Positions 1,369 to 16,798 of a DNA stretch of 16,798 bases are shown here, piece after piece. The DNA is taken from contig SKJD01000496.1 in the NCBI GenBank assembly GCA_007116095.1, positions 1 through 16,798 of the forward strand. The letters run 5' to 3'. Below the pieces are notes generated by a model that saw only the letters and a list, made by a program, of their open reading frames with translations, searched no databases and had not been told where the DNA came from. The DNA comes from Candidatus Hydrogenedentota bacterium (GTDB taxonomy: Bacteria; Hydrogenedentota; Hydrogenedentia; Hydrogenedentales; SCBR16-9). Both the position numbers and the translations under genes were made by a program. The first letter of the stretch is position 1. Each line of letters opens with the position of its first letter.

Positions 1369-1406
1369 GGGGAATTCCTCTTTCGGGGCATGGGGCGGCA
1401 TAGACA

Positions 1407-2135
1407 TCATCCCAAGGGCGTGCTTGCGAAACGGCGGAGGGGCAGGATGTCCGTGGTCATCTGTGGCGACATGGTGGCCAGAAACAACGCCGCATGCGCA
1501 ATATCCTCGGGCTGCATGAAGTCCGCCTTGTCACGATCGGGCATGGCTTCCTCCGTCATCCGGGTCGCCACGCCGCCGGGACACAAGGCGTGCACCGCTA
1601 TCTGGTAGTCGCGCAACTCAAGCGCCAGGGACTTGGTCAGCCCGTTGACCGCATGCTTCGCCGCGCAGTAGGCGCTCTGGTTTTCAATCGGCTTGAGCCC
1701 CGTCACACTGGAGACATTGATGATCCGCCCGCTACGCCGTTCCATCATGTCCGGCAGCACCGCCTGGATACAGTGGAACATGCTATTGAGGTTCACGTCC
1801 AGGGTCTTTTGCCAGGCGGCGAAATCCATCTCCCAGAAAGGCTTGAATGCCGCGTAGCCCGCATTGTTCACGAGGATGTCAATCTTTCCGAATTCCGCCT
1901 GGGCCTGTGCAACCACACGCCGGACCTGGTCGGCGTCGGCGACATCACAGGGAATCGCGATCACACGGGTTGACGTACGTAACGCCAAAATAGCTTCCCG
2001 GGTCGCCTCCAGCTCTGTTTTCGTTCTGGAGCAGATGCACAAATCGCAGCCCGCCTCCGCAAAGGCCATAGCGATGGCGCGACCGATTCCCCGACCGGCG
2101 CCGGTGACTAAAGCGGATTTCCCACGTAAAAACAT
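1407..2135 (-). CDS. Classical short-chain dehydrogenase/reductase (SDR), FabG-like
   Basis: This is a soluble NAD(P)(H)-dependent oxidoreductase of the classical SDR family, 242 residues, the normal length. Seen in sequence: the Rossmann nucleotide-binding motif TGAGRGIG (11-18); CDV (63-65), which contacts the adenine ring in the family; NNAG (90-93); and the catalytic tetrad N115, S143, Y156, K160 (NVSS then YCAAK). The substrate-binding turn CPGGVATRM (185-193) is also present. The residues after the second beta strand, SRTKTEL (36-42), place an Arg after the Ser, which leans toward NADP(H); this is an inference. The substrate cannot be told from sequence. 3-oxoacyl-ACP reductase (FabG) is the nearest broad label, but many SDRs of other pathways look the same. 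The ATG lies 12 bases after AGGAG, which sits directly against the stop codon of the upstream YihY-like gene (18-base gap), supporting co-transcription. Its TGA overlaps an in-frame upstream ATG of recD2. Confidence 0.93.
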   Translation of the reverse strand: MFLRGKSALVTGAGRGIGRAIAMAFAEAGCDLCICSRTKTELEATREAILALRTSTRVIAIPCDVADADQVRRVVAQAQAEFGKIDILVNNAGYAAFKPFWEMDFAAWQKTLDVNLNSMFHCIQAVLPDMMERRSGRIINVSSVTGLKPIENQSAYCAAKHAVNGLTKSLALELRDYQIAVHALCPGGVATRMTEEAMPDRDKADFMQPEDIAHAALFLATMSPQMTTDILPLRRFASTPLG

Positions 2136-2153
2136 GGCGATAAATGTCTCCTG

Positions 2154-3740: not shown

Positions 3741-3933
3741 GGCCGCCGTCCCATGGGGTTTACTGCTATTAACGGTCTTGTGACACGACTCCTGATATTC
3801 TGCCGTGGCGCAAGCCCCTTCCGTAAGCCGTCATTTTCTCACATTACCGCCGGTCTTTGCCATGCCCAACGTGCATCGCGTCAACTACGGTATGGTCCGC
3901 ACTACAGGCCATGCCGCTACGGCTACCGGGCGT

Positions 3934-5775
3934 TCAGTCTATGAGATACCCGTCTTTCTCCAGGAGCTTGGCGAGTTTTGCCTTGCTGATCCCCTTATAA
4001 TTCAGCATACTGTTCGGGTCGATATGCTGGATGTATTGGTTATACCGGCGCTGGTGCGCAATCTCGGCGATAACCAGTGGGTCCTCGGACTCCACGATGT
4101 GCAAGGTACGTATCTTCACGCGCTTCATCCCGCCCATCCAGTCTTCCAGGGTCATCACGACATTGGGGGGCAGCTCGTCCATACGGTTGTGCTTGAGCAA
4201 AAAGACGACGAATTCCTTTGGATCATGGCCCGACTGCATCGCCTGCGTAAAGCGCACCTTGGTCAATGTGTATATGCGCGCCTGATCGCTTCCGCTGCGC
4301 TCGGCAAAGCGCTCCAGCGGAAGCATTTTCAGGGGATCAATCTGATCGCTGGGAACAACAACCTCGAAATTGGGCTGTACCACAAATTCACAACCCTTGT
4401 CCGGGAACTGCGCATACAATTCTTTGGGGAAGTCGCCTCGCAAAAAGGCTATACCCATAGTGGTGAAGCGAATATATAATTGATTGCCCCGACGCAAATG
4501 CGCCACCAGACCCAACCAATGCATTTCACACTGCAACGTGCGCGTCAGGCAGTCGCGGACAACTTCCGTGTTGCTGGGGTTGGCATAGCACAAGACGCCA
4601 TTATCCATCTGCTGCAATATGCCGTCTTCATCCCTTGCTGCCGATCGCGCCGCATACTCCACCAGGTCTTCCATGAGATACCAGGTCGTGTTGTCCAGGT
4701 CCGCATTTATCACCTGCAATGTATTTTTTGCAATTGCATAATCGCGGACATGCTGTAACAAGTCATCCAACGCTATATGCCGCTCAAAACGACTCATGCT
4801 TATAAGTGCATCTAAGCACTGACCGGCCACGACCAGATTGTCCTTCGAGACATCCAGCCAATCGTTCACCTCTGCTATCCAGATACAGGCGTCCACATTC
4901 AGATACTCGCCGGGAGGGACCAAGTCCTCAACGCGCTTTTGATCCTCTTTGTACAACCCGCCTGACTTGCGCATTCGGGCAGCCCCCCCCACCAGGGCGA
5001 TCACGATATGTCCTATGCTTTCGGAAAGCTGAATCCCCAGATCACTCCCTTCAGACTCCGGCGCATCCAGCGTCTCCAGCATCGGCACGGGGGCAACCTT
5101 CGACATACTTTCTCTATACTGTCGTATTTCCGCCAACAAAGCCACTACCCGCACCAAGCGTCCCTCGTTGTCAAAGCGGAACATTTCATACAACAAACAA
5201 TGTTGCACGAGCTCCCAGATTGCCTGCTCTACTTCGGCGTCGGAGCCGCCATGCAGCGCCCGAAGTTGGCCGGCTGGCATAATTCCTTTGGGGGACTCCC
5301 ATAGCAAGTCAAAGACTTCATGGGCCGTCTTCGAGACATTAAGGTCCTGCAAGCAATTCCGTATATTGCTTGGCGTGTCGTAATACCTATTGACAAACCA
5401 ATTAGCAAAGTCCGTCCGGTTCATGCTCATGTGATGCGAGAAACGCGCCATAAAAAGCCCGAATTCACTTTGCGACATGCTACGAATTCTGTTTGCAAAT
5501 GCATTAAAATCCCCCTGGCTGCTTAAGCTCTCCGCAATGCGCTTAATAACATGCTGTCCGTCCGGAGCCAGCTTTATCCGGGAGATGTCGGCATAAAACA
5601 GACGATCATAGACATCCACCAGGTACTCGACTTCCTCATCGGGAATTTCCAGCTTCTTCGCGAGAAAACGCACAGTTAGCCCGGAGCGACTTTTATCGGA
5701 CAGCTCTTCGGCGATTTGGTAGGCAAGGCGGCTCATCCCTTCCAGTGAAGCGAGCAAACTGGCGCCATGTCGCAT
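3934..5775 (-). CDS. Helicase-associated (Helicase_C_3-like) domain protein without a helicase motor
   Basis: This 613-residue protein is soluble, with no signal peptide or membrane segment. Residues about 460-575 match the pattern of the 'helicase conserved C-terminal domain' (Helicase_C_3, PF13625) known from XPB/Ssl2-like helicase-associated proteins: CEFVVQPNFEVVVPSDQIDP (462-481), then an Arg-Ile-Tyr-Thr-Leu-Thr helix start (500-505), then LPPNVVMTLEDWM (535-547) followed by a basic beta strand and an IVESEDPLVIAEI strand (559-571). The N-terminus (about 15-85, including LTVRFLAKKLEIPDEEVEYLV) resembles a winged helix. The middle is helical and unassigned. There is no Walker A, DEAD/DEAH box or other ATPase motif anywhere, so it should not be named a helicase. 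The ATG sits 6 bases after AAAGGAGAA, a strong ribosome site. A TATAAT promoter lies about 100 bases upstream. The gene is transcribed alone, and the next gene downstream begins after 193 bases. A nucleic-acid-binding or helicase-partner role is inferred from the domain only. Confidence 0.8.
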   Translation of the reverse strand: MRHGASLLASLEGMSRLAYQIAEELSDKSRSGLTVRFLAKKLEIPDEEVEYLVDVYDRLFYADISRIKLAPDGQHVIKRIAESLSSQGDFNAFANRIRSMSQSEFGLFMARFSHHMSMNRTDFANWFVNRYYDTPSNIRNCLQDLNVSKTAHEVFDLLWESPKGIMPAGQLRALHGGSDAEVEQAIWELVQHCLLYEMFRFDNEGRLVRVVALLAEIRQYRESMSKVAPVPMLETLDAPESEGSDLGIQLSESIGHIVIALVGGAARMRKSGGLYKEDQKRVEDLVPPGEYLNVDACIWIAEVNDWLDVSKDNLVVAGQCLDALISMSRFERHIALDDLLQHVRDYAIAKNTLQVINADLDNTTWYLMEDLVEYAARSAARDEDGILQQMDNGVLCYANPSNTEVVRDCLTRTLQCEMHWLGLVAHLRRGNQLYIRFTTMGIAFLRGDFPKELYAQFPDKGCEFVVQPNFEVVVPSDQIDPLKMLPLERFAERSGSDQARIYTLTKVRFTQAMQSGHDPKEFVVFLLKHNRMDELPPNVVMTLEDWMGGMKRVKIRTLHIVESEDPLVIAEIAHQRRYNQYIQHIDPNSMLNYKGISKAKLAKLLEKDGYLID

Positions 5776-5873
5776 GCGGCGTTCTCCTTTCGAGGCATTC
5801 CAGGACCGGCTTGGTGCGGGATTCCATACAGCGCGTTTGGATTCCCGGTATCGGGCATAAAAATGGACCTTCC

Positions 5874-5903
5874 ATTATAGCGGATAAATACGAATTTGAA
5901 CAA
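5874..5903 (-). promoter_or_regulatory. Probable sigma70-type promoter of the helicase-associated protein gene
   Basis: On the minus strand a perfect TATAAT occupies 5879-5874. Upstream are TGTTCA (17-base spacer) or TTGTTC (18-base spacer), each matching TTGACA at 3 of 6 positions. The predicted start is near 5867, leaving a leader of about 90 bases that ends in AAAGGAGAA before the ATG. The -10 is strong and the -35 weak, so an activator or other sigma contacts may contribute. It is inferred by eye only. Confidence 0.5.
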
Positions 5904-5985
5904 ACGCCGGAATGCGCCGAAATTGCCCACAATTTGTGTTTGTACGGCCTGTGTTGTAAGGTTGGATGGTCCCTGAGTGAGAGGC

Positions 5986-5994
5986 TGGTATAAT
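5986..5994 (+). promoter_or_regulatory. Probable extended -10 promoter of the small anchored protein gene
   Basis: TGGTATAAT is a perfect extended -10 element (TG, one base, TATAAT). The nearest -35-like hexamer, TTGGAT at 5962-5967, is 21 bases away, which is too far for a standard promoter. Extended -10 promoters need little -35 contact, so this is consistent. The predicted start is near 6001, about 77 bases before the ATG at 6078. Confidence 0.5.
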
Positions 5995-6077
5995 ATGCAC
6001 AACGGCAGCGCACAGGCCTGCCGTCAGCAACGATAACGCCTGGGTAGCACATAACATGCGCCCAGTGAGAGGTTTGT

Positions 6078-6680
6078 ATGTATTCTCTGGCCTACATCAC
6101 CATTCATACTTTGCTAATAAGTTTTGGCGCCAGCGCCTATTGGGGCCCGGTGCCCGAAGATGTGCGTACTTTCGTGATCACGTATCCCGACTCCGAGGAA
6201 CGTGATTATGCTGCACTTCAAGTGAATGGGGAATGGATATTGGACAGCACCCCGGATTTATCGAACAACCAGCAAGTGACGTTGATTTACGACTACCCCT
6301 GGCAGGAGCCCGCAACACACAACACGCTCTTCCGGAATATCCGGATCGACTCCGAACCCCGGGCTTTACGCGCCAATCGCATTGAACAGGGCTACAAGGA
6401 CGCTGATTATGTGCTGATGCGGCTGGACACCGGGGTGTTGCCTGTACAGGAACAAGACATCGCCCTGGCTGAACGGGCGGCGGCCATGGCGGCGGAAGTC
6501 AATGGGAGCGACAGTACGCCCGGCGAAGTAGGGACGTATGGCGCGACAGAAGCCCCGGGCAACGAACCCGGGTCAAGCGCAGCAGGATTTTCCGGCTATC
6601 GCTGGGGCGCGCATGCACTGGTGTTACTCGGCCTTGGCCTGGCCCTATTTGGAATCTACCGCCGCTTCCTGGCCGACTGA
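6078..6680 (+). CDS. Unassigned small protein with N-terminal signal-like segment and C-terminal membrane anchor
   Basis: I do not recognise this 200-residue protein. A hydrophobic stretch at residues 1-20 ending FGASA-YW looks like a signal peptide, although it lacks the usual basic n-region. Residues about 25-120 look like a beta-rich soluble domain, with an acidic/tyrosine-rich VTLIYDYPWQEP stretch (67-78). Residues 125-140 are Ala-rich and helical (LAERAAAMAAE). Residues 141-172 form a Gly/Ser/Thr/Pro/Glu-rich linker. A single hydrophobic segment (about 177-194) is followed by YRRFLAD. This architecture predicts an exported domain tethered to the inner membrane with a very short cytoplasmic tail. 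The tail (TM then arginines) recalls C-terminal sorting tags, but no PEP or similar motif precedes the TM. GAGAGG lies a few bases before the ATG. The stop is only 5 bases from the convergent cyclase stop, with no terminator hairpin between them. Confidence 0.75.
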   Translation: MYSLAYITIHTLLISFGASAYWGPVPEDVRTFVITYPDSEERDYAALQVNGEWILDSTPDLSNNQQVTLIYDYPWQEPATHNTLFRNIRIDSEPRALRANRIEQGYKDADYVLMRLDTGVLPVQEQDIALAERAAAMAAEVNGSDSTPGEVGTYGATEAPGNEPGSSAAGFSGYRWGAHALVLLGLGLALFGIYRRFLAD

Positions 6681-6685
6681 TCGCC

Positions 6686-8389
6686 TTACCCCTTGGCTTT
6701 TGTCGGCTCCGGGTCAATCTCCGCGTCGGCGTCCAGCAGCGCCACGATCTCATAGGCATACACCGGACGATCCTTGCCTTTCAATAGCAACGTCCCCAAC
6801 GGATTGCCCCGCACCCGATCCGCCAGGGACTGCCAGGTATCCATGCCCACCACTATCATCCCGGGTCCGGCCATGTCACACAGACGTTTTGCCGTGTTGA
6901 TGCGGTCGCCGACCACAGTGAAGTCCATGCGCATGGGAGAGCCGATATACCCGGCGATCACCTCGCCGGTCTCGATTCCGATACCGAGTTGAAGGTGGGG
7001 GAGACCCTGTTCGCTACGCTTGTGATTGAGTTCCTGGTTCTTCTGTTGAATCGCCATCGCCGTCAACACGGCCTGATAGGGCGCATCCTCCAGGGCCAGG
7101 GGCGCTCCGAAAAGCACCATGATCTCGTCGCCGATGTACTTGTCCAGGGTGCCCTGGTGCTGAAAGACGATTTCGGTCATGGCGGTGAAATGCTCGTTCA
7201 GGGTGCGGACCAACTCGGCGGGCGAGAGCTGTTCGGCGAGTTTGCTGGAACCGCGAATGTCACAAAACAACGTCGTTACGCAGGTCTTCTGGCCGCCCAA
7301 TACCAGGGAGCTGTCTTCGTTCAGAATTTTATTCACGATAGCCGGGGAAAGGAAACGCCCCAGATTCATCCGATTCTTTTCTTCCAGCACCACCTTCTGA
7401 TGCAAGGTGACGTTGTCAATGGCGAGCGCGCATTGGTACGCCATGGAAGCGAAGAGTTCCAGGTCTTCTTCGTTGAAGAGGATGCCGTCCTGGCGGGTAT
7501 CCAGGTAGATCGCCCCGAGCACACGATCTACGACCTTCAGCGGCACACTCATCGCGCTCTGGATGTTTTCGCGAATGATGCTGTCACGCGATCCGAAAAT
7601 CTCGTCGGTCTGGCGGTTGACCATAAGCACCGGTTCGTCGTGTTCGACGACCTGCCGGGCGATTCCCATGCTGGGGCTGCCTGTACTGATTTCCGTAGCC
7701 ATCTGGCGGGCCACCCGCACCTTCAGCTCGCCGTCGGCCTCACGCAGCACCACGAAGCCCCGGTTGGCGTCCAACACCTCTATCGTGAGGTCCAGCACAT
7801 TGCCCAGGCGGTTGTCCAGATCGAAGTTGGAGGCCATCACCTGACCCGCCTTGTGCAAGGCCGCCAGCCGGCGGTAGGCCCGGCCCATCTTCATAATGTC
7901 CATTTCCGTGGCCGAGGAAATGGGTTCCGCGGCCTGCTCCGGCTTGCGCGCCTGGCCGATCAGGGTCATGCTGTTGCCAACCCGGTCCATTTCGGCCCGA
8001 ATGCGGTCCATGTCTTCGTTGAGCGAGCTATCGGGCTTTAGCCCTTCCGGCTTGTCCATATCCGATTGCAACGGGTTCCGGAAGAGGATACGACATTTGC
8101 TGCCGAACCAGATTTCGTCGCCGTCGGAGAGCACCCGCTCAACGATACGCTGCCGGTTGACATAGGTGCCGTTCATGCTCTTCTGATCCACCAACACCAC
8201 ACGCTGGTTCTGTATATGGATTTTGGCATGGCTCCGGGAAACCTCGTCCGCCGTTAGCGTCACATCGCATTGATCGGAGCGGCCCAACACGATAACAGTT
8301 CTATTTAACGGCACGGTTTGTGTAGCGACGTTGGGCTGATCAATTACAATGTAGGGGGTTTCAGGCGCCTGTTTCGATAACAAATCCAA
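6686..8389 (-). CDS. FHA-GAF class III adenylate cyclase
   Basis: This 567-residue signalling enzyme is predicted to make cAMP from ATP in the cytoplasm. Domains in order: FHA phosphothreonine-binding domain (about 14-104; GRS 36-38, SRSHA 51-55, NGTYVN 73-78, the family's phosphopeptide-contact motifs); a linker (105-170); GAF ligand-sensing domain (about 180-330); a short signalling helix ending NRMNLGRFLSP (339-349); class III cyclase homology domain (about 365-550). The cyclase has both metal aspartates (D377 in FCDIRG, D421 in YIGDE), adenine-selecting K417 and T491 (MDFTVVGD), and transition-state N498 and R502. It therefore looks catalytically complete and adenylate- rather than guanylate-specific. 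No membrane segment is seen. The only start that keeps the FHA domain is TTG (8389, or 8383); the first ATG is codon 72, inside FHA. AGGAGGAGGA lies directly upstream, one of the strongest ribosome sites in the window. It is a single gene, convergent with the small anchored protein. Confidence 0.93.
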   Translation of the reverse strand: MDLLSKQAPETPYIVIDQPNVATQTVPLNRTVIVLGRSDQCDVTLTADEVSRSHAKIHIQNQRVVLVDQKSMNGTYVNRQRIVERVLSDGDEIWFGSKCRILFRNPLQSDMDKPEGLKPDSSLNEDMDRIRAEMDRVGNSMTLIGQARKPEQAAEPISSATEMDIMKMGRAYRRLAALHKAGQVMASNFDLDNRLGNVLDLTIEVLDANRGFVVLREADGELKVRVARQMATEISTGSPSMGIARQVVEHDEPVLMVNRQTDEIFGSRDSIIRENIQSAMSVPLKVVDRVLGAIYLDTRQDGILFNEEDLELFASMAYQCALAIDNVTLHQKVVLEEKNRMNLGRFLSPAIVNKILNEDSSLVLGGQKTCVTTLFCDIRGSSKLAEQLSPAELVRTLNEHFTAMTEIVFQHQGTLDKYIGDEIMVLFGAPLALEDAPYQAVLTAMAIQQKNQELNHKRSEQGLPHLQLGIGIETGEVIAGYIGSPMRMDFTVVGDRINTAKRLCDMAGPGMIVVGMDTWQSLADRVRGNPLGTLLLKGKDRPVYAYEIVALLDADAEIDPEPTKAKG

Positions 8390-8390
8390 A

Positions 8391-8400
8391 TCCTCCTCCT
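8391..8400 (-). promoter_or_regulatory. Strong ribosome binding site fixing the TTG start of the cyclase gene
   Basis: On the minus strand the run AGGAGGAGGA contains two overlapping perfect AGGAGG sites. The upstream copy is 5 bases from TTG at 8389 and about 11 from the in-frame TTG at 8383. It decides the start: no ATG occurs until codon 72. A weak TTG start behind an ideal Shine-Dalgarno may set a modest expression level. Confidence 0.75.
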
Positions 8401-8522
8401 GGCTAAGCAGCGCATAAACCGGACTTTGGGTCCGTTAGGGGTAAAAACTTGAAGTCACGCGAGCGCCAACGTAAGGTATTGCACACGCAAATCCCCGCAG
8501 TCATGTTGCACGCTTTGCACCT

Positions 8523-8551
8523 AGTATACCTGCTGAAACCTATTTTGACGA
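8523..8551 (-). promoter_or_regulatory. Possible promoter of the adenylate cyclase gene
   Basis: On the minus strand TCGTCA (8551-8546, 4 of 6 to TTGACA) is followed after 17 bases by TATACT (8528-8523, 5 of 6 to TATAAT). The predicted start near 8516 would leave a leader of about 125 bases. The site lies in the spacer shared with the divergent glycosyltransferase gene, for which I see no clear promoter of its own. A TTGACG on the plus strand at 8545-8550 has no good -10. Confidence 0.4.
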
Positions 8552-8613
8552 AGTAATTTTATCAAGTAATTGCCCTTCGGGCTGCACAACAAGTGCTTGT
8601 GGAACGGATATCC

Positions 8614-10350
8614 ATGCAGAAAAATGCGTTTTTTATCGTATCGATGGTCGCAATCCTGTTGTTGGGGACCATAGCCTATTTCAACACCCTGGACGGCGAT
8701 TGGGTTTGGGATGACGTCTCTTCCGTCCTGTTGCACCGGCATGTTCAAGACCCCGGCCAGTTTACACAGCTCTTCAAAGAGGACCAGCACGCCTTCGGTC
8801 GGGGCCAGGGCAACTTTTACCGCCCTCTGGTCGCCGCGAGTTTCATGTTGGACTTCTGGTTAAGCCATGATCCCGTCCGGGACAGCAACCCCGACCTGCC
8901 CTATCCGGACGTATCCACGCTTCTGTTTCATATCAGCAACTTGCTGTGGCACCTGGCCGCCGCCGTGCTGCTTTGTCTACTGCTGCACCGCTTCGGCGCG
9001 CCACGCTTCGTCAGTTTCACCGTCCCGCTCATTTTTGTGGTGCATCCGCTACACACCGAAGCGGTCGCCTATATCAGCGGTCGCGCCGACATGATGTCCG
9101 GGGTCTTCATCTTCCTCGGGCTGTATTTTGGGCTCTGGGAAGGCAGCCAACGAAAACGCATTGCGGGAATCATCCTTTCGAGTCTCGCCTTTATTTTGGG
9201 CTTGTTGAGCAAGGAATCCACGCTGATCTTCCCGCTGCTGCTGGGGCTGTGCATCTTTCTGCTACCCATTGCCCGGAACGGAGAATCGGAGGGTCCGGTA
9301 TCCCGCAAGGCGCTTTTGAAGCAACGCGCATTGCCGCTGGCGCCAGCCCTGATCATTGTACTGATCTACGGGTACTTGCGCAGCACCGTGCTGCACTTTG
9401 CCGACACCACCACCGCCATGGAGGCGGCGCCCTTCCTGACGCGGCTCGTAGAAGTCGTCCAGGCCTTCGCCCTGTACATTCGCCTGCTTTTTATCCCCAC
9501 GGGACTCCACATGGAGCGCAGCCTCGATCATGTAGGCCTGATTACCGCCCTGATCGGACTGGTAGTGTTGGCGATGCTGATCGGCCTGCTGGTTTGGGCC
9601 GTCCGGGGCGGACACAACCGCATTGCAATCGGGTTGGGCTGGTTCTTCCTGGCCTGGCTGCCGATATCCGGACTTTTCCCCCTGAACGCCCCCATGGCGG
9701 AGCACTGGATGTACGTGCCGATGGCCGGTTTCTGGTGGGCGATGGCCGAGCTGCTTTACGCGCATCTGCCCCACAGCTATACCTGGCGACGCGGCAAGGC
9801 GGTGCTGGTGGGGGCCCTCTGTCTCCTCTTCATTCTCCTGACCGTGCAACGCAATGAAGACTGGAAGAGCAACGAACGCCTTTTCCGCGCAACCCTGGCG
9901 CAAAACCCGAACACCATCCGCGTACACCACAACCTGGCCGTGACGTATGAAGACCTGGAAGGCAATTTCTCCGGGGCGCGACGGCACTGGGAGCATATTC
10001 TTGCGCTGTATCGGGAGGACAAGGTCGCCAACAACCTGACCCCGGACTATCTCCTGCCCGAAGAGATTGAGGTCTATCATTCCCTGGGTAAAATTCACTT
10101 TCAGCAGCAAAACCATGCCGAGGCCCGGGACACGCTCGCCTTCCTCTTGAACGCCGCGCTACAACCCGAGCGCCGGGAAATGCTGGGCCGGTTCCGCGGT
10201 GAAATCGCTTCGGCAGCCATGCTCTACGGGAAAGCCGCCCTGGCCATGGGCGATGTGGGAGAAGCCGAAATGAGCTTCCGACAGGCCCAGAACCTGGCTC
10301 CCGAGCTGGAGTCCGAGGTGGAGGCCATACTCCTGGGCGCGCCGCTGTAG
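8614..10350 (+). CDS. TMTC-like GT-C membrane glycosyltransferase with C-terminal TPR region
   Basis: The gene encodes a multi-spanning protein of 578 residues. It resembles the bacterial relatives of TMTC/PMT-type (GT-C fold) glycosyltransferases, which in known cases move a sugar from a lipid-phosphate carrier to protein outside the cytoplasm. Seen: an N-terminal TM (about 5-23) followed by the acidic loop WVWDD (30-34), the position of the GT-C catalytic acid; the family signature HPLHTEAVAYISGRAD (144-159); LLSKEST (197-203); PLNAPMAEHWMYVPMAG (356-372); and about ten hydrophobic segments through residue 410. After the last TM, a helical region (about 412-572) has TPR-like repeats, e.g. 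484-515 and 534-565 (YGKAALAMGDVGEAEMSFRQAQ). The ATG at 8614 is chosen because the protein then starts MQKN straight into the TM. GTG at 8593 is in frame and would add 7 residues, but lacks a clear Shine-Dalgarno. It ends 17 bases from the convergent recG stop. Donor and acceptor are unknown. Confidence 0.85.
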   Translation: MQKNAFFIVSMVAILLLGTIAYFNTLDGDWVWDDVSSVLLHRHVQDPGQFTQLFKEDQHAFGRGQGNFYRPLVAASFMLDFWLSHDPVRDSNPDLPYPDVSTLLFHISNLLWHLAAAVLLCLLLHRFGAPRFVSFTVPLIFVVHPLHTEAVAYISGRADMMSGVFIFLGLYFGLWEGSQRKRIAGIILSSLAFILGLLSKESTLIFPLLLGLCIFLLPIARNGESEGPVSRKALLKQRALPLAPALIIVLIYGYLRSTVLHFADTTTAMEAAPFLTRLVEVVQAFALYIRLLFIPTGLHMERSLDHVGLITALIGLVVLAMLIGLLVWAVRGGHNRIAIGLGWFFLAWLPISGLFPLNAPMAEHWMYVPMAGFWWAMAELLYAHLPHSYTWRRGKAVLVGALCLLFILLTVQRNEDWKSNERLFRATLAQNPNTIRVHHNLAVTYEDLEGNFSGARRHWEHILALYREDKVANNLTPDYLLPEEIEVYHSLGKIHFQQQNHAEARDTLAFLLNAALQPERREMLGRFRGEIASAAMLYGKAALAMGDVGEAEMSFRQAQNLAPELESEVEAILLGAPL

Positions 10351-10367
10351 TTGATTATTCAGAACAA

Positions 10368-12455
10368 CTACGTCGCCAGGAGTATGCGTCGGGCGCGTTC
10401 GAGCAATGCGGCGTAGGGACAATCAGGATCGTCGGTTGCCTGTCGAAGGATTTCCGCAGCGTCTATCCGGGCCTGGTCAAGCAGATCGGCGTCCCGGGCC
10501 AGGTCCGCCGTACGCAGATCGCTCAGGCCCGCCTGCCGGATGCCCGTGAATTCGCCCGGGCCACGCAGTTGCAAGTCCGCCTCCGCAATGGCAAAGCCAT
10601 CGGCTTCCCGGCACAGCGTATCCAGGCGTTCGCGGCCCTCGGGGGTGCTCGGTTTGCCCAGGAGAAAACAATACGCCTGGGCGTCGCCCCGGCCCACACG
10701 CCCGCGAAGCTGATGCAACTGGGTCAGGCCGAATTGCGGCGCATTTTCTATGACCAGCGTCGTGGCGTTGGGCACATCCACGCCGACCTCAATGACCGTT
10801 GTCGCCACCAACACGTCGAGCGCGCCCGCCTTGAAAGCCGCCATCACTTCGTCCTTCTCCTGGGAATTCATGCGCCCATGCAGCAGACCGACCCGGAGCG
10901 ACGCCAGCGGCCCGGCGCATAAATCTTCGTAGTGCTCGACCACGGCTTTTAGATTGCGCGTCTCTTCGCCCTCTTCAATCAGCGGACAGACAATGTAACT
11001 CTGTCGACCCGCTTCGGCCTGGGTCACGAGGTAGCGATAGAGGTCCGTAACCTTGCTGTCAGGAATCCTGCGGGTCTTGACCGGTTTGCGCCCAGGAGGC
11101 AACTCGTCCAGGATATGGACATCCATCCCGCCGTAGAGCGTCAGGGCCAGGGTGCGGGGGATGGGCGTCGCCGACATGTGCAGCAAGTCCGGTCGCATCC
11201 CCTTGCCAAGGAGCGCATTCCGTTGCAGCACCCCGAAGCGGTGCTGTTCATCGATGATCACCAGCCCCAGCCGTTTGAAGCTTGTGCTCTCCTGAAACAG
11301 TGCGTGCGTCCCAAACACCACCTGAATATCGCCTCGGGCCAGCTCCTTACGAATGCTTTTTGCCCCGACAATGGCCCCGGTGAGCTGGGCTACCCGCACG
11401 CCCAACGGAGCCAGCAAAGGCGCCAAACTCCGGTAATGCTGCTCCACGAGAATTTCCGTGGGCGCCATGAAGGCCACCTGATGCCCGCCATCCAGCGCCG
11501 CCGCCAGACAATGCAAAGCAACCACGGTCTTCCCGCTCCCCACATCGCCCTGTAGCAGCGCGGCCATGGGCGCGGGGGAAGCCATGTCCCGCAGCAGGCC
11601 CGCGATGACGCGCTCCTGGGCGTCGGTGAGGGTGAAGGGCAAGGCGTCATGCAGCCCCCGAAGTATGGGCCCGTTTATCCGGTGGGCTATCCCATGATCC
11701 ACTTGCCGCGCGGCCCGGTCGGCCAATACCGCCAGTTGCAGCATCAGCAGTTCCTCGTAGGCAAACCGCGCCAACGCCGCCCGGGCCGCTTCCGGAGTTT
11801 CCGGGAAATGGGCGCTCGGTAAAGCCTCGGCAAGGGGCGGCAGCTTCCGGCGAATCAACAACGCTTCCGGCAAGGTCTCGACCAGCGCACCATGCAGGAG
11901 AGCAAGCGCGTCGTATATCCACTTGCGCAGCAAGCGCTGCGAAACACCCTCCCGCAGGGCATAGACCGGCACAATACGCCCGGTATGCACGCGGTCCTCG
12001 GCATCATCGCTCAACAGCTCGTAGCTGGGACTGTTCAGGGTTAAGCCCTTGTATTCCTGGACCACCCCCGAGAAGAGGCAGCGATTCCCGGCCTGAAAGG
12101 CGCTTTGAGCAAGATAGCCCTGCCCAAAAAAGGTCAGCGCCATCTGGCCGGTCTCGTCTTCGACTTTGACCTGGGCGGCATTGAGCCCACGGGACATGCG
12201 CCGGGCATGGGCGGAAATGATCGTGCCCTGAATCGTGGCGTGCTCCCCGGGCTCAAGCGCGGCAATCGGTGTGATGTGCCGTCGGTCCTGGTGGGTGCGT
12301 GGAAAATAAAACAGCAAATCCCCGACCGTGCCCAGGCCCAATTTCGCCAGATTCTCCGCACGCTTCGCGCCTATGCCCGGCAACACGGTAAGCGGCGCAT
12401 CGAAGGGGATTGCGGTGTCGGTTTTGGGCGGCGTTTGGGCAGTATCAGGCATCAT
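10368..12455 (-). CDS. recG: ATP-dependent DNA helicase RecG
   Basis: RecG is a cytoplasmic superfamily 2 DNA translocase that remodels stalled replication forks and branched recombination intermediates. The protein is 695 residues, the normal length. Seen: an N-terminal helix-hairpin-helix-like LTVLPGIGAKRAENLAKLG (22-40); the wedge OB domain (about 65-150); Walker A GDVGSGKT (303-310); motif Ia APTEILVEQH (331-340); DEQHRFG (402-408); motif III SATPIPRT (428-435), the RecG/Mfd signature; motif V ATTVIEVGVDVPNA (551-564); motif VI QLRGRVGRG (582-590); and the C-terminal DLQLRGPGEFTGIRQAG segment typical of RecG. All motifs are intact. Two consecutive ATGs (12455 and 12452) can start it, and in-frame stops lie directly upstream. 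There is no good Shine-Dalgarno; instead a 16-codon leader frame overlaps the start. A possible promoter lies at 12543-12516. The gene is monocistronic here and divergent from the GH2-like gene. Confidence 0.97.
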   Translation of the reverse strand: MMPDTAQTPPKTDTAIPFDAPLTVLPGIGAKRAENLAKLGLGTVGDLLFYFPRTHQDRRHITPIAALEPGEHATIQGTIISAHARRMSRGLNAAQVKVEDETGQMALTFFGQGYLAQSAFQAGNRCLFSGVVQEYKGLTLNSPSYELLSDDAEDRVHTGRIVPVYALREGVSQRLLRKWIYDALALLHGALVETLPEALLIRRKLPPLAEALPSAHFPETPEAARAALARFAYEELLMLQLAVLADRAARQVDHGIAHRINGPILRGLHDALPFTLTDAQERVIAGLLRDMASPAPMAALLQGDVGSGKTVVALHCLAAALDGGHQVAFMAPTEILVEQHYRSLAPLLAPLGVRVAQLTGAIVGAKSIRKELARGDIQVVFGTHALFQESTSFKRLGLVIIDEQHRFGVLQRNALLGKGMRPDLLHMSATPIPRTLALTLYGGMDVHILDELPPGRKPVKTRRIPDSKVTDLYRYLVTQAEAGRQSYIVCPLIEEGEETRNLKAVVEHYEDLCAGPLASLRVGLLHGRMNSQEKDEVMAAFKAGALDVLVATTVIEVGVDVPNATTLVIENAPQFGLTQLHQLRGRVGRGDAQAYCFLLGKPSTPEGRERLDTLCREADGFAIAEADLQLRGPGEFTGIRQAGLSDLRTADLARDADLLDQARIDAAEILRQATDDPDCPYAALLERARRILLAT

Positions 12456-12495
12456 TCAAGCTCAGGTAGTCGACCAGGTGTTTGAGGTTCTTCAT
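12445..12495 (-). CDS. Possible 16-codon leader peptide overlapping the recG start
   Basis: A short frame, MKNLKHLVDYLSLNDA, begins with ATG at 12495 and ends with TGA at 12447-12445, running past the recG ATGs at 12455 and 12452 in another frame. recG itself has only a poor Shine-Dalgarno, so ribosomes ending on this frame could restart on recG (translational coupling). The leader also has no clear ribosome site. Its ATG is about 14 bases from the predicted transcription start. It could be chance: a frame this short is common. There is no tandem amino-acid codon run, so it does not look like an attenuator. Confidence 0.25.
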   Translation of the reverse strand: MKNLKHLVDYLSLNDA

Positions 12496-12515
12496 AGCAA
12501 CACGACGCGACGCCC

Positions 12516-12543
12516 GGTATAATCATGCAACCGACGTCGTCCA
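12516..12543 (-). promoter_or_regulatory. Possible recG promoter
   Basis: On the minus strand TGGACG (12543-12538, 4 of 6 to TTGACA) is followed after 16 bases by TATACC (12521-12516, 4 of 6 to TATAAT). The predicted transcript starts near 12509, just before the 16-codon leader frame. It is weak on both boxes and should be treated as a candidate only. Confidence 0.3.
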
Positions 12544-12575
12544 GGCCCAACAGGATACCTGCTTCGGCCTGAAAT

Positions 12576-12605
12576 TTGCATCCTGAAGGGCAAAACTTCT
12601 ATACT
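12576..12605 (+). promoter_or_regulatory. Probable promoter of the GH2-like protein gene
   Basis: TTGCAT (12576-12581) is followed after 18 bases by TATACT (12600-12605, 5 of 6 to TATAAT). The predicted start is near 12612, giving a leader of about 58 bases to the ATG at 12671. The -10 is good and the -35 keeps only the TTG core. Confidence 0.45.
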
Positions 12606-12670
12606 ACGGTTCCCTTAATAATTGTATTTGAACCCAAGGAGCCAGTGTGCTCCGACAGAGAATTTGAATC

Positions 12671-15600
12671 ATGAGTTTGTTGCGCGACGTTCTTTCTTTG
12701 AATGAAAACTGGTGTCTTTTGGAAGATGCCGGCGATATTGGCATCAATGCCCAGTGGCATCAGCCCGAAAAGGCGCCAGCGGGATCGGCTATACAGCTTC
12801 CCTATCACGCCAAATCGGTCGCGCCCAAGACATCTCATGATCACACCCGCGCAGCCATACCCCATTGGCTATTTCATCGCTTTTCACTTCCCGCCGAGGC
12901 GTTTCAACAGCGGCATTGTGAATTGCACTTTGAAGGCTTCCCCACAAAAGCTTCCATCTGGCTGAACGGCCAGCATCTCAGCACCCAAAGCACGACTTTG
13001 TTGCCTTTCAGCCTGCCTGTGCATGCCCACCTGCGTGACTCGGACAACTTCCTGTCAATACGACTGGACGCCGCGCCCCAGGCCATCGGCAACGTCGCCC
13101 TGCGCTGCATGCCCCGCCAACACATCGAAGCCGTACAGATTCATCCGGACATCCGGCGTAAGCGTATTGTGGTGCAAATCCAGAAAAATGTGGATTTGCC
13201 GGTGCGGCTTCAGGTGCTCAACACAGAAAATCAGTTAATTGAAACCGGGGAGGAGTTGATACTCGACTTTCCCGAGTTCCAGATGTGGCGACCGCAGAAG
13301 CCCACGCTATACACCTTGCAGGTCGAACTGCTGGATCAAGAAGACCCAAGTTCGGCGAAGGTCGTGGACTGTTTACAGACGCCTTTCGGGATGCGTGAGT
13401 TTACGGTAAAAGACCAGCGCTTTTACCTGAACAACCGGCCGTTGTACCTAAAAATCATGCGCAACGCCAACCGCCAGATGCTGGCCTACCGCAGCGATGA
13501 GGCGCATCGTCTGATCGCGTGCGCCCGCCAGGCCGGATTCAATGCCCTTTATACAGCAACCCCTTTTCCGGAGAATCTGCTGGAAGCCGCGGATGCGCAG
13601 GGGATACTGGTGCTGCTACAGTCACCAGGATTGCGCTTTGACGCATCTCCCGAGATGCCGGAAGCGGTTCAGGATTTTATCTGGCGTCATGGCGCCCACC
13701 CCGCCCTGGTCGTTTGGCGCGCAAGCTTTCCCGCACTGCCCAAACCGCGCATCGTACCGCAGGCTGATGATGAAGCCCTGCCCGAATTACAGGGGCAGGC
13801 CGCAACGCTGCGCAGTCTGGACCCTTCCCGGTTGATTTTTATGGACTCGGAATCCCTGCCGGGTCCGGGCTTGCAATATTACAGCCGTCCCTATCGAAGC
13901 CACCTGGAAATCATGGACACGCCGGTCTTCCATCATGCGGCTCCGGCGCCCCAAGAGGCGGAACACTATCTGCGGAAGATGGGCTCCGGCAGTCGCCTGA
14001 GCCTGTTGAGTGCTTTTGGGTATCCCACCCAACTGGAGCAGATTCGCAGGCTGGCCACCGAGAATAACCCGGAGCGTCAGGCACAGGAAAAGATATTTCA
14101 GGAGCGTAACCTGGATCGTGTCTTTGGGCAGTTCAACAACTATCTCAAGGGCCTGATGCAACTGGAGTTTGACGCCATCCGGGATCACCTGGACGCCCTG
14201 CGCAACAACCCCAACCTGGCCGGATATTGCTATCGAAGCTGCTATTGGAAATCGGCGATGGAGCAGGATGCCGCACCTGCGCTCTACCAATCGATGCAGG
14301 AACTGCAAGCCTGCATGCGTCCCCTCATCGACATCGCCACGACCAACCTCAAGCCCCGTGAAGAGGCGCCGTTGACCATTTACCTTGTCAATGAAAAGCG
14401 GCTGGAAGGCCGTGCGGAACTCTCGTTACAACTGGTGGGGCCGACAAACCAGGTACTGTGGAAGAAACGGCGCAGCGTGAAACTACCGAAACCGGGCAAA
14501 GCGCTCTGGAGCGGCTCGGTAGCCGCTTCGGGTTCCACCGGAACCCACCGCTTTGTTGTGCGTGTTTCCCAGGAAAACCAGCTTATCGCCCAGAACCATA
14601 TTGAACTCTATGTGATGAAGCCGAATCCGGCGCTCCCGGAAGGCCAGGAACGCATACGGGTGCATATGCTGGACCCCAACGGCCAGTGGAGTCCGTCCTG
14701 CAATGAGTTGTTCAAACCAGACAACCTGCTGGCCCCGATACATATCATTCCACCCCTGGCCAATAGCATTCTTGCTTATCCGGAAAACGAGCTGATGCAG
14801 ATTTTGGCGCAGGTGGAAGGCGGGGCCATTGCCTTGTTCTTCAGTCCGCCGCCGGACTGGAACAGCCTCGCGCAGCAACTGGAACCGGAAATGAGCCTGA
14901 GCGCCACGAGCCGTCCGCTGTGCAATGACAGCCAGGTATTGGGGCATTACGCCAAGCTCCATCCGATATTTGAAGGCCTGCCAGCACGCGATTTTATGCG
15001 GATGCCTTACCGAAACATCCTGCCTCAGCATAGTTTCGTTGAAACGGGGGAAGAGGATATCAGCGGGCACATGACGCTGGAACGCCCTGGGCGGGCTACA
15101 GGCTCTCGGGAAGTATGGTGGGGTAACAACATCCTGGTGCGACGTTATGGCAGTGGACGGATTGTGTTTCTGCACATGCCGTTACTGGAGCATCACCAGG
15201 ATGATCCGGTCGCGGACCGCATGTTGTTAAATCTTGTGCAGCACTTTGAACGGCGTTCCGTGCCAAGTCAGATACCGCTGCCGATAGCACAGTCGGCGGT
15301 GGAGTGGCTGCGCCTGATGCGTAATCAGAAATTGCGGCGCTGGATGGTTATTGGTAACTTTCCCAACTGGGAGTTGCAGGGCCACGACGCCATCTATCCG
15401 CCGGAAGAGCAAATCGACTTTCAGGCCGCCTATCCGGGATGGGATCGGGTCGTGCCTTGGCGCCCCTGGCATACCCATAGCGAGCAAGAACACCTGCTCG
15501 ATTTCGAGAAAGCTTTGGGCAACTTCACCCAGCAAGCGCCCATGCACGACTACGCCACCGCCTATGCGTACGCCGAATTCAGTTGCGACCGGCGGGTGGA

Positions 15601-15841
15601 AGTCGAGGTCAGTCTGGGCGTCCAGAACGCCATGAAGGTCTGGGTGAATGGCCAGGCGCTCTTCAGTCATGAACAGCATGTGTCGGCGGACAGCCTCGGC
15701 ACGGAAAGATTCAATGCCTACCTGCGACAGGGCCGAAACAGCCTCCTTGTAAAATGCTCCAAAATACCGGGACCCTTCCGTTTCAGCCTGGATTTTGACC
15801 CGATGGACGGCCATCCGCTGGTGCTGAATTGGTGGAAGTAG
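12671..15841 (+). CDS. Large GH2-fold protein, probable pseudoenzyme (both catalytic Glu absent)
   Basis: This 1056-residue protein has the layout of a GH2 beta-glycosidase (beta-galactosidase/glucuronidase/mannosidase clan) but not its catalytic residues. In order: GH2 N-terminal jelly roll (about 10-133; e.g. LHFEGFPTKASIWLNGQHL 85-103); Ig-like domain (about 150-238); TIM-barrel entry PFGMREFTVKDQRFYLNNRP (238-257) and GFNALYTATPFPENLLEAAD (289-308); barrel to about 540; a second Ig-like domain (about 563-650); an alpha/beta region (about 660-860, GSGRIVFLHMPLL 827-839) like the ThuA/GATase-type domain of some large glycosidases; and a C-terminal jelly roll (about 950-1042, with AMKVWVNGQALFSH). 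The usual acid/base segment (HPSVIIWSLGNE-like) reads HPALVVWRASFP (343-354), with Pro where Glu should be. The nucleophile segment (SEFG-like) reads LLSAFGYPT, with A448 for Glu. No signal peptide is seen, so it is probably cytoplasmic. The ATG follows an in-frame TGA and has a weak AGAGA ribosome site. A binding or scaffold role is inference. Confidence 0.85.
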   Translation: MSLLRDVLSLNENWCLLEDAGDIGINAQWHQPEKAPAGSAIQLPYHAKSVAPKTSHDHTRAAIPHWLFHRFSLPAEAFQQRHCELHFEGFPTKASIWLNGQHLSTQSTTLLPFSLPVHAHLRDSDNFLSIRLDAAPQAIGNVALRCMPRQHIEAVQIHPDIRRKRIVVQIQKNVDLPVRLQVLNTENQLIETGEELILDFPEFQMWRPQKPTLYTLQVELLDQEDPSSAKVVDCLQTPFGMREFTVKDQRFYLNNRPLYLKIMRNANRQMLAYRSDEAHRLIACARQAGFNALYTATPFPENLLEAADAQGILVLLQSPGLRFDASPEMPEAVQDFIWRHGAHPALVVWRASFPALPKPRIVPQADDEALPELQGQAATLRSLDPSRLIFMDSESLPGPGLQYYSRPYRSHLEIMDTPVFHHAAPAPQEAEHYLRKMGSGSRLSLLSAFGYPTQLEQIRRLATENNPERQAQEKIFQERNLDRVFGQFNNYLKGLMQLEFDAIRDHLDALRNNPNLAGYCYRSCYWKSAMEQDAAPALYQSMQELQACMRPLIDIATTNLKPREEAPLTIYLVNEKRLEGRAELSLQLVGPTNQVLWKKRRSVKLPKPGKALWSGSVAASGSTGTHRFVVRVSQENQLIAQNHIELYVMKPNPALPEGQERIRVHMLDPNGQWSPSCNELFKPDNLLAPIHIIPPLANSILAYPENELMQILAQVEGGAIALFFSPPPDWNSLAQQLEPEMSLSATSRPLCNDSQVLGHYAKLHPIFEGLPARDFMRMPYRNILPQHSFVETGEEDISGHMTLERPGRATGSREVWWGNNILVRRYGSGRIVFLHMPLLEHHQDDPVADRMLLNLVQHFERRSVPSQIPLPIAQSAVEWLRLMRNQKLRRWMVIGNFPNWELQGHDAIYPPEEQIDFQAAYPGWDRVVPWRPWHTHSEQEHLLDFEKALGNFTQQAPMHDYATAYAYAEFSCDRRVEVEVSLGVQNAMKVWVNGQALFSHEQHVSADSLGTERFNAYLRQGRNSLLVKCSKIPGPFRFSLDFDPMDGHPLVLNWWK

Positions 15842-15880
15842 TGTATTTACTTTAATGATCTTATCAATTCATAACGAAGC

Positions 15881-15905
15881 GTAGGGGCGAACCTTGTGTT
15901 CGCCC
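15881..15905 (+). repeat. Hairpin repeat, left copy (GTAGGGGC...TTCGCCC)
   Basis: GTAGGGGC at 15881-15888 opens the element. GGGCGAA (15885-15891) pairs perfectly with TTCGCCC (15899-15905) around a 7-base loop. The same two blocks recur in inverted orientation at 16101-16125. The block pattern resembles 'taggggcgaa...ttcgccc' repeats that I recall from intergenic regions of many environmental bacteria; copy number in this genome cannot be seen here. Confidence 0.6.
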
Positions 15906-15928
15906 GCGTAGGTAGTGTTTTCCACCCA

Positions 15929-15957
15929 CGTCATCCCTGCGAAGACAGGTATCCAGT
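15929..15957. repeat. Degenerate copy of a CGTCATTCCCGCG-type palindromic repeat
   Basis: The 29 bases keep the outline of the widespread intergenic palindrome that starts CGTCATTCCCGCGAA and ends GGGAATCCAG (related to the dRS3/REP-like class): CGTCATCCCTGCGAA on the left and CAGGTATCCAGT on the right. Several stem positions are changed (TCCCT against CAGGT), so the fold is imperfect. It is recognised by resemblance only, without a search. Confidence 0.45.
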
Positions 15958-15984
15958 ACATTTACGTAACCGCATACCTATAAA

Positions 15985-16096
15985 CCAACACGAATTCCCT
16001 CTGCGCCTTTGCGTTAAAAAATTCCGTGTTTTCCGTGCTTTCCGTGGTAAAAAATTGGTTAATAGGTTCGTGTGATTCGCGTGTATTCGCGGTTAT
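15985..16096 (+). repeat. Short-period repeat block (TTCCGTG / TTCGTG units every 9-10 bases)
   Basis: TTCCGTG occurs at 16022, 16031 and 16040, an exact 9-base period. It is followed by TTCGTG at 16067, TTCGCGTG at 16076 and TTCGCGG at 16086 (9-10-base period). Before them lie CTGCG (16001) and TTGCG (16009), and a reversed unit, AACACGAA, at 15987-15994. TAAAAAATT occurs twice, at 16015-16023 and 16048-16056, joining the modules. It contains no open frame of interest. Similar 'accacggaaaacacgg' strings are familiar from intergenic DNA of several environmental phyla. Confidence 0.65.
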
Positions 16097-16100
16097 AACA

Positions 16101-16125
16101 GGGCGAATACACGCTTAGCCCCTAC
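16101..16125 (-). repeat. Hairpin repeat, right inverted copy
   Basis: GGGCGAA (16101-16107) and GCCCCTAC (16118-16125) are the exact reverse complements of the TTCGCCC and GTAGGGGC blocks of the left copy. The middle differs, so the internal stem is reduced to GGGC/GCCC. Together with the left copy it forms inverted ends around about 245 bases that include the palindrome and the short-period repeat. Confidence 0.55.
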
Positions 16126-16135
16126 AGTCCCAGGT

Positions 16136-16159
16136 TCGACCCACTGCCCCTGTGGTCGA
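16136..16159. promoter_or_regulatory. Bulged palindrome overlapping the -35 of the oxidoreductase promoter
   Basis: TCGACCCAC (16136-16144) and GTGGTCGA (16152-16159) form an inverted repeat of 8 pairs with one bulged C, around a 7-base TGCCCCT loop. Its right arm overlaps the predicted -35 (16156-16161). It could be an operator, or just one more member of the repeat cluster. Confidence 0.35.
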
Positions 16160-16184
16160 CTTTATCGCCGCTTTTCCCTATACT
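16156..16184 (+). promoter_or_regulatory. Probable promoter of the FAD oxidoreductase gene
   Basis: TCGACT (16156-16161, 4 of 6 to TTGACA) is followed after 17 bases by TATACT (16179-16184, 5 of 6 to TATAAT). The predicted start is near 16191, about 39 bases before the ATG. An independent promoter argues against co-transcription with the GH2-like gene. Confidence 0.5.
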
Positions 16185-16229
16185 ATCTTCTGCTGGACGC
16201 ATCCATGAGCCGTAAAAGCAGGAGAAAGC

Positions 16230-16798
16230 ATGAAAATCGGGATAATCGGGGCGGGTATTTCGGGATTGACAGCGGCGCTGCGCCTGGCGCAACAGGGGCA
16301 CGAGGTGCATGTCTTTCACCGGGAAGCCTCGCTGGGTGGTCTACTGGCGACCTTCGACTTTAACGGCGTGCGCGCCGAACATTTCTACCACTTCCTCTGC
16401 CGCGATGACGCCGGCGTCTTTGATCTGTGCCGGGAGCTGGGCCTGGAACGGGAGATACAGTTCAAAAAGGCCTCCACGGGCTTCTATTACGACGGCGCAC
16501 ACTATCCCTTCAACTGCGCCCTCGACCTGCTCCGCTTCCGGCCCCTGACTTTCCTGAACCGCATCCGATTCGGTTGCTTCGCACTGGCGGCAAAGTGGCG
16601 GCAGGAATGGAAGCCCCTCGACCGACTGCCCGCCAAGCCCTGGCTGAAGCGCTGGCTGTCGCCACAGGGCTACGACGTCATCTGGAAGCCCTTGCTGGAG
16701 ATGAAGTTCGGCAATCACCATGCCCAGATTTCCGCGGCCTGGGTCTGGCATCGGATTCATCGGGTAGCGCGCTCGAACGGCCGCCTGGGCTACCTGAA
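16230..16798 (+). CDS. FAD-dependent oxidoreductase (amine oxidase/HemY-like flavoprotein), 3' end missing
   Basis: The first 189 codons are seen and the frame runs off the right edge. The N-terminus is a Rossmann FAD-binding fold: MKIGIIGAGISGLTAALRLA with GxGxxG at residues 7-12, and a GG doublet at 36-37 (REASLGGLLATFDFNG), the flavin pyrophosphate-binding pattern of the amine oxidase/protoporphyrinogen oxidase superfamily (COG1232 type). The following EHFYHFLCRDD (50-60), LCRELGL (66-72) and YDVIWKPLLEMKFG (148-161) resemble flavoproteins often found in exopolysaccharide or cell-envelope sugar clusters, but the substrate is unknown. UDP-galactopyranose mutase and desaturase-like members share the fold and cannot be excluded without the C-terminus. 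A good ribosome site, AGGAGAAAG, lies just before the ATG. Confidence 0.88.
   Translation, partial: MKIGIIGAGISGLTAALRLAQQGHEVHVFHREASLGGLLATFDFNGVRAEHFYHFLCRDDAGVFDLCRELGLEREIQFKKASTGFYYDGAHYPFNCALDLLRFRPLTFLNRIRFGCFALAAKWRQEWKPLDRLPAKPWLKRWLSPQGYDVIWKPLLEMKFGNHHAQISAAWVWHRIHRVARSNGRLGYL

Follow-up and report, generated by a model that had tools for sequence, protein, structure and literature searches.

A GH2-like protein of the Hydrogenedentota in which both catalytic glutamates are replaced and constraint has moved towards the C-terminal half

Results

We have analysed a stretch of 16,798 nucleotides deposited as Candidatus Hydrogenedentota bacterium (assembly GCA_007116095.1, contig SKJD01000496.1, positions 1 to 16,798; hereafter the window), and in particular one gene on its forward strand, the product of which, P0001, is built like a GH2 glycosidase. 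The original prediction, made from the sequence alone, was that both catalytic glutamates (Glu) of this protein are replaced, within the span 13697-14020 (H343 to G450). The features of the gene and its product are as follows.

12671..15841, + strand: GH2-like pseudoenzyme gene, 1056 amino acids, no signal peptide seen
12671..13096, + strand: N-terminal GH2 sugar-binding jelly roll, residues 1-142, decayed
13097..13402, + strand: first immunoglobulin (Ig)-like domain (Ig1), residues 143-244
13403..14350, + strand: GH2 TIM barrel, residues 245-560
13715..13732, + strand: WRASFP, residues 349-354, in the place of W-x-x-x-N-E; acid/base Glu replaced
14009..14020, + strand: SAFG, residues 447-450, in the place of S-E-F-G; nucleophile Glu replaced by A448
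14351..14656, + strand: second Ig-like domain (Ig2), residues 561-662
14438..14473, + strand: near-invariant hairpin GPTNQVLWKKRR, residues 590-601
14657..15310, + strand: ThuA/GATase1-like domain, residues 663-880
15311..15838, + strand: C-terminal jelly roll, residues 881-1056, resembling GH2 N-terminal domains and carbohydrate-binding modules

All 1056 codons of the open reading frame (ORF) are open, with HPALVVW at residues 343-349 (13697-13717) and SAFGYP at residues 447-452 (14009-14026). From 5.8 billion proteins searched, 7991 candidates were scored and 239 of these proved to be relatives; the best 120 of the 239 were used for an alignment of 121 rows. Several of these 120 are named Candidatus Hydrogenedentes, several are annotated as beta-galactosidase or GH2 TIM-barrel protein, and the window itself, judged by the kinship of its genome, appears to belong in the Hydrogenedentota. 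The start codon of P0001 fits its relatives, since 82 of the 117 rows with a letter at that place likewise have 13 residues ahead of W14. No N-terminal hydrophobic stretch was detected, the top score among 119 proteins of more than 1000 amino acids being 1.17 as against 2.62 and 1.75 in two paralogues, by a crude measure on which a protein that we take to be secreted (L002, below) reaches only 1.51. The window protein is probably cytosolic.

The predicted structure of P0001 (predicted local distance difference test score, 88.5; predicted template modelling score, 0.88) and its fold matches show the jelly roll, Ig and TIM barrel order of GH2, as had been proposed, although the Pfam barrel model itself gave 14.3 bits, below its cut-off of 21. 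Barrel strand 4 spans residues 346-353 and strand 7 residues 443-449. Under the clan GH-A rule, which we take to place the catalytic glutamates at these two strands, P354 and A448 stand at the catalytic positions of the model. In most relatives the acid/base site is W-x-x-x-N-E (mainly WGMLNE) and the nucleophile site S-E-F-G, whereas P0001 has neither the Asn-Glu after strand 4 (WRASFP) nor the Glu at strand 7 (SAFG). Coordinates, alignment and predicted strands thus agree on the replacement of both glutamates; the register at both sites is correct and the gene is not frameshifted, as the original prediction also held, W349 being invariant in the 121 rows and the frame open throughout. P0001 combines glycosidase homology with lost catalytic residues, as a pseudoglycosidase does. 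A different GH2 protein of the window's own genome, L002, has N-E and G-E-F-G, so the glutamates are detected where they are present.

No convincing replacement pair was evident among the Asp and Glu residues near the strand ends of the P0001 barrel, where such a pair would have spoken against the original prediction. Some of these acids are non-acidic in P0003, the nearest distinct relative, and the rest are also acidic in the majority of Glu-keeping relatives, with the exception of position 324, an isolated acid after strand 3 (D in P0001, E in P0003). The pocket is altered beyond the glutamate pair, with the His of R-L-H replaced by Thr and a shorter loop after strand 8, and the loop near residues 133-140 of the N-terminal jelly roll is about 25 residues shorter than in the relative P0004. 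Motifs and model together indicate that the barrel is very probably non-hydrolytic, and we infer that P0001 does not hydrolyse glycosides. Most rows of fold matches to the full model cover residues 1-648, and a separate model was therefore made of the C-terminal part; there residues 663-880 took a ThuA/GATase1-like fold, followed by the C-terminal jelly roll, so that both of the extra domains named in the prediction are present.

Motif scoring of the 121 rows gave 90 with both glutamates, 9 without one and 22 without both. The closest relative, P0002, differs from P0001 at 6 of 1056 positions, has the same two altered motifs and lies on a longer contig (27,481 bases), which speaks against a sequencing error in so far as its source is independent. 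At 100% coverage P0003 is 55% identical to P0001, with 82.5% identity in Ig2, and has Asn as its nucleophile residue; it has no aligned acid/base Glu and is counted as having lost one glutamate solely owing to a Glu at W+5 (WQLISE). It had been proposed that close orthologues with both glutamates would point to a recent loss or an error. The nearest distinct relative lacks the pair, but many relatives at 40-46% identity retain it.

An orthologue was found at an expect value (E) of at most 1e-60 in 63 of 68 genomes of the phylum and in 37 of the 38 better ones, with a contig-end piece added by G007. The gene is part of the near-universal set of the phylum and is mostly single-copy. Both glutamates are kept in 32 of the 61 readable genome orthologues and not in the other 29, 8 of which keep one; three further genomes (G060, G064 and G065) are unreadable at one or both sites. 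In the genus g6, where the nucleophile column is badly aligned (2 of 4 have a Glu within three residues), a score of both lost is uncertain. Six orthologues of about 830-910 amino acids (L097, L105, L107, L109, L110 and L111, from G003, G017, G004, G029, G023 and G011) match P0004 from residue 160-172 onward, so these orthologues, of families f4 and f5, lack the N-terminal GH2 jelly roll. In three genomes (G052, G056 and G026; L071, L092 and L100) the orthologue is broken over two frames or by a stop, really or as an assembly artefact, and the pieces were treated separately. GH2 paralogues occur in a few genomes; those read, in G002 and G033, have an N-terminal hydrophobic stretch and both glutamates, and further matches lie in G009 and G059.

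To count the losses we used a tree of 95 rows built from the C-terminal half alone, which was chosen because decayed barrels could attract one another. It held the genome orthologues, every Glu-lacking database row but P0002, and seven database rows with the pair intact; fragments truncated at contig ends were left out, as were three near-identical rows. On this tree 14 changes are required, of which the starred branches force 12. With the intact pair set as ancestral, matching the paralogues, Dollo losses number 13 when branches below 95 are collapsed (one count per node), 16 when those below 80 are, and 19 on the uncollapsed tree. By these counts, one or both glutamates appear to have been lost in about a dozen lineages. 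Since the losses recur and the nearest distinct relative also lacks the pair, they are best read as old and repeated, rather than as a recent error.

In P0011 and P0025 both glutamates are gone with 92% of the other conserved barrel columns intact, and in P0088 the nucleophile alone is lost with 90% intact. Among 7083 pairs of equally conserved columns, joint loss is as frequent as in the glutamate pair in 5, that pair included; because the rows were first recognised by loss of Glu, this is evidence that the two glutamates can be the first to go, but not that selection caused their loss.

An association of loss with a smaller GH2 repertoire or genome was considered and dropped. Loss genomes had a median of 2.0 GH2 barrels other than the orthologue and Glu-keeping genomes one of 4.5 (p=6e-6; for the latter and for G067, a hit to the orthologue itself was assumed to be present and taken off), and genome sizes were 4.4 and 5.7 Mb, respectively (p=6e-4), both without correction; only 6 independent pairs were available, and sign tests did not reach 0.05.

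We then compared the domains with respect to invariant columns, defined as those conserved to at least 95% in the 90 Glu-keeping rows. P0001 keeps 38% of these in the N-terminal jelly roll (n=52), 80% in Ig1 (20) and 38% in the barrel (130), as against 100% in Ig2 (26/26), 90% in the ThuA/GATase1-like domain (62) and 88% in the C-terminal jelly roll (42). A clade of 11 loss rows is alike, as are P0003, P0089, P0040 and P0103/113, with 35-50% kept in the barrel and 80-100% in the C-terminal domains. Other loss rows are intermediate (barrel 58-82%), apart from P0011, P0025 and P0088 (92-95%), and the Glu-keeping P0028 keeps just 73% of its invariant barrel columns. Within the clade of 11, Ig2 is the most alike domain (86%; barrel 59%), whereas 30 random draws of 11 Glu-keeping rows with similar mean identity gave 62% for Ig2 and 71% for the barrel; the Ig2/barrel ratio of the clade, 1.45, is outside the range of the draws (0.79-0.94). 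P0002 was excluded from most means.

The ratio of barrel to C-terminal distance had a median of 1.84 (minimum 1.36) in 15 loss pairs and 0.78 in 16 Glu-keeping pairs (p=5e-6), the pairs having been chosen by hand from the tree and some not being strict sisters. For G059 (both glutamates lost) against G009 (acid/base Glu lost), which belong to one genus, the ratio of nonsynonymous to synonymous substitution rates (dN/dS) was 0.47 (0.33-0.65) in the barrel, 0.52 in the N-terminal jelly roll, 0.10 in Ig2 and 0.14 in the C-terminal jelly roll; domains with fewer than 40 aligned codons were excluded. The barrel value in five Glu-keeping pairs, two of which share G055, was 0.06-0.16. Domain-wise identity between P0001 and P0003 is in line with a gene kept by selection. 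The protein is conserved at full length, as the earlier claim of constraint would have it, but not evenly: constraint has moved towards the C-terminal half, and the N-terminal jelly roll and barrel are decayed.

A near-invariant element of that half is the Ig2 hairpin. All 121 database rows have Q-x-L-W-K-K there, and 113 of them have QVLWKK[KR]R; the longer motif GPTNQVLWKK[KR]R is absent from both secreted paralogues examined. The ThuA/GATase1-like domain has no near-invariant Cys among the 121 rows. Cys occupies position 798 in 96 of the 121, P0001 having Ser there; at position 677, within the first helix, it is present in 93 of the 121 and also in P0001. After strand 720-724, where a nucleophile elbow would be expected, the sequence reads SPPPDW. 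P0001 thus lacks, by sequence, the triad Cys nucleophile of the class I glutamine amidotransferases. Parts of other proteins of Hydrogenedentota, Poribacteria, Planctomycetota and Akkermansiaceae also match the C-terminal jelly roll (residues 888-1050, about 15332-15820), as do L003 and L004 of the window's own genome.

In the stretches retrieved around the orthologue, from 14 readable genomes and a single unreadable one, genes for uvrC, an alpha/beta hydrolase, an ARMT1-like protein and a DUF456 protein recur. The uvrC or hydrolase genes stand beside it in 5 Glu-keeping and 9 loss genomes, and such common neighbours in both groups support orthology. They are absent from the window, which has recG upstream and a flavin adenine dinucleotide (FAD) oxidoreductase gene downstream instead, and the comparison yields no function for the window gene. 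Elsewhere in the window, an ORF of 200 amino acids at 6078-6680, flanked by genes for a helicase-C domain protein and an FHA-GAF-cyclase, has no Pfam match at E of at most 0.01.

Discussion

The reading that we favour, with a probability of roughly 0.58, is that of a two-module protein in which the ancestral GH2 half has lost catalysis and decayed and the C-terminal half carries the function for which the gene is retained. The N-terminal module (jelly roll, Ig and TIM barrel) would ancestrally have been a GH2 glycosidase and, after loss of one or both glutamates, would decay under relaxed selection, with its fold kept but not its pocket; the dead, eroded barrel may now serve as a scaffold. The C-terminal module (Ig2 with its hairpin, ThuA/GATase1-like domain and jelly roll) would bind or dock a partner or ligand, possibly through the basic hairpin and the conserved ThuA-like surface. 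The lasting job of the protein is probably not sugar cutting, although hydrolysis is probably the main job in the Glu-keeping relatives. A more specific version is possible, if tentative: a cytosolic regulator or scaffold of the phylum core, derived from a fused GH2 enzyme, in which the glycosidase was repeatedly switched off, the pair being able to go first as a unit and barrel erosion following, while the hairpin and ThuA-like domain sustain an undescribed second function.

Several observations weigh against the two-module reading. The trees are quick ones with some long branches, where the tree program warns that its stars deserve less trust. The single-copy rule has exceptions, with two overlapping copies each in G066 (57% alike; L056/L124) and G060 (93%; L120/L121), which may reflect duplication or mixed assembly. 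By BLAST coverage the barrel region is present in the genome orthologues uncut by contig ends; together with a barrel dN/dS below 1, this argues that the barrel still matters, if only for folding, and in the Glu-keeping relatives it is the best conserved domain (71% mean identity). The Glu-keeping pair G006/P0026 acts like a loss pair (ratio 1.71); G006 (L085) reads WGVPGE and AEFG, and this form may already be inactive despite its Glu letters. The G059-G009 pair, from a lineage related to that of the window gene, is the sole loss pair close enough for dN/dS, and in it the ThuA/GATase1-like domain is itself relaxed, at 0.30 (0.18-0.48) as compared with 0.05-0.14 for this domain in Glu-keeping pairs, with an interval that overlaps the barrel's; the whole C-terminal half gives 0.20, as compared with 0.05-0.13. 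Finally, no PDB entry is related by sequence to the C-terminal module at E of at most 1, and the Pfam matches of the module are weak (best E 0.0006, to a GH2 N-terminal domain, in 6 of 44 members), so that its job is read from conservation.

The main rival is a second enzyme: the ThuA/GATase1-like domain would still work in a once bifunctional protein of which the glycosidase half alone was lost. We regard this as doubtful, in view of SPPPDW and the missing near-invariant Cys, which leave no amidotransferase triad by sequence, the somewhat relaxed state of the domain in the sole testable loss pair, and the lack of a solved relative by sequence. The nearest known counterparts of the domain are ThuA-like and GATase1-like proteins (1t0b, 3rht), from which it differs in having no near-invariant Cys and no match by sequence to PDB entries.

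A lectin-like pseudoglycosidase, the barrel of which still binds sugar as a sensor or scaffold in the manner of the chitinase-like YKL-39, would suit the confidently predicted fold, the loss of the pair from otherwise intact barrels in P0011 and P0025, and known precedents (PMC7828330). It is nevertheless unlikely for P0001, in which the pocket is degraded too (Thr for the His of R-L-H, the shorter strand-8 loop, 38% of barrel columns), and the f4/f5 orthologues dispense with the N-terminal sugar-binding domain. Of the non-hydrolytic job first proposed, the non-hydrolytic part very probably stands, and sugar binding by the barrel is less supported, with 38% of both barrel and N-terminal jelly-roll columns kept.

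Catalysis by other barrel residues has a parallel in a solved chain named beta-glucuronidase (7xyr A), which aligns as WAPLTV at the acid/base site without the usual N-E, but is very improbable, as no new acidic pair common to P0001 and P0003 is evident near the strand ends and, where the glutamates are lost, the barrel changes faster than the C-terminal half. A decaying pseudogene or assembly error is the least credible explanation, for although the window genome is fragmented (503 contigs, 63.7% complete) and the dN/dS evidence comes from a related lineage, the frame is open at full length, P0003 is similar over its whole length and strongly so in Ig2, P0002 is near-identical on its longer contig, and G+C content at third codon positions is 0.67-0.68 in both halves of the gene.

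Among characterised GH2 glycosidases, E. coli beta-glucuronidase and LacZ, CapGH2b (9npf) and a beta-D-galactofuranosidase (9j6n) differ from P0001, in which both glutamates are replaced, the pocket is decayed and ThuA/GATase1-like and jelly-roll domains are added; the Phocaeicola plebeius GH2 protein 8u01 is 13% identical to P0001, with a root-mean-square deviation of 5.2. The secreted GH2 paralogues L126 and L127, of the same phylum, are similar to P0004 up to about residue 906 and keep both glutamates, but differ from the orthologue in having the N-terminal hydrophobic stretch and in lacking the hairpin motif. Pseudoenzymes are usually met after gene duplication, with an active copy alongside, and YKL-39 and Klotho have an active relative in the same genome. 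Recognised pseudoglycosidases include YKL-39 (GH18), Klotho and CyRPA (PMC7828330), and the GH28 pseudoenzymes of leaf beetles, where active and inactive members are described together in one species (PMC8213348). Like YKL-39, Klotho and the beetle proteins, P0001 would be a glycosidase fold without catalytic activity; unlike in the beetle species, the inactive form here is mostly the only orthologue in its genome, and loss recurs in many lineages. The open-licence papers searched yielded no account of the window protein, of a family of GH2 pseudoenzymes or of a GH2 orthologue that repeatedly loses catalysis, and galactosidase is not mentioned in the available portion of the main text of a paper on Hydrogenedentota metabolism (PMC10866078).

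For annotation, the protein probably cuts nothing in 29 of the 61 readable genomes, despite the beta-galactosidase and GH2 names of several family records. The part worth testing is the C-terminal module conserved across the phylum. One mostly single-copy orthologue shows the stages side by side (intact in 32 genomes, the pair lost from an otherwise intact barrel in P0011 and P0025, one Glu lost, the barrel eroded, the N-terminal domain missing) and so offers natural material on how catalysis is traded for another role. If the more specific version is true, the repeated switch-off would be a bacterial counterpart of the Klotho-like conversion, with many of its stages preserved in one orthologue.
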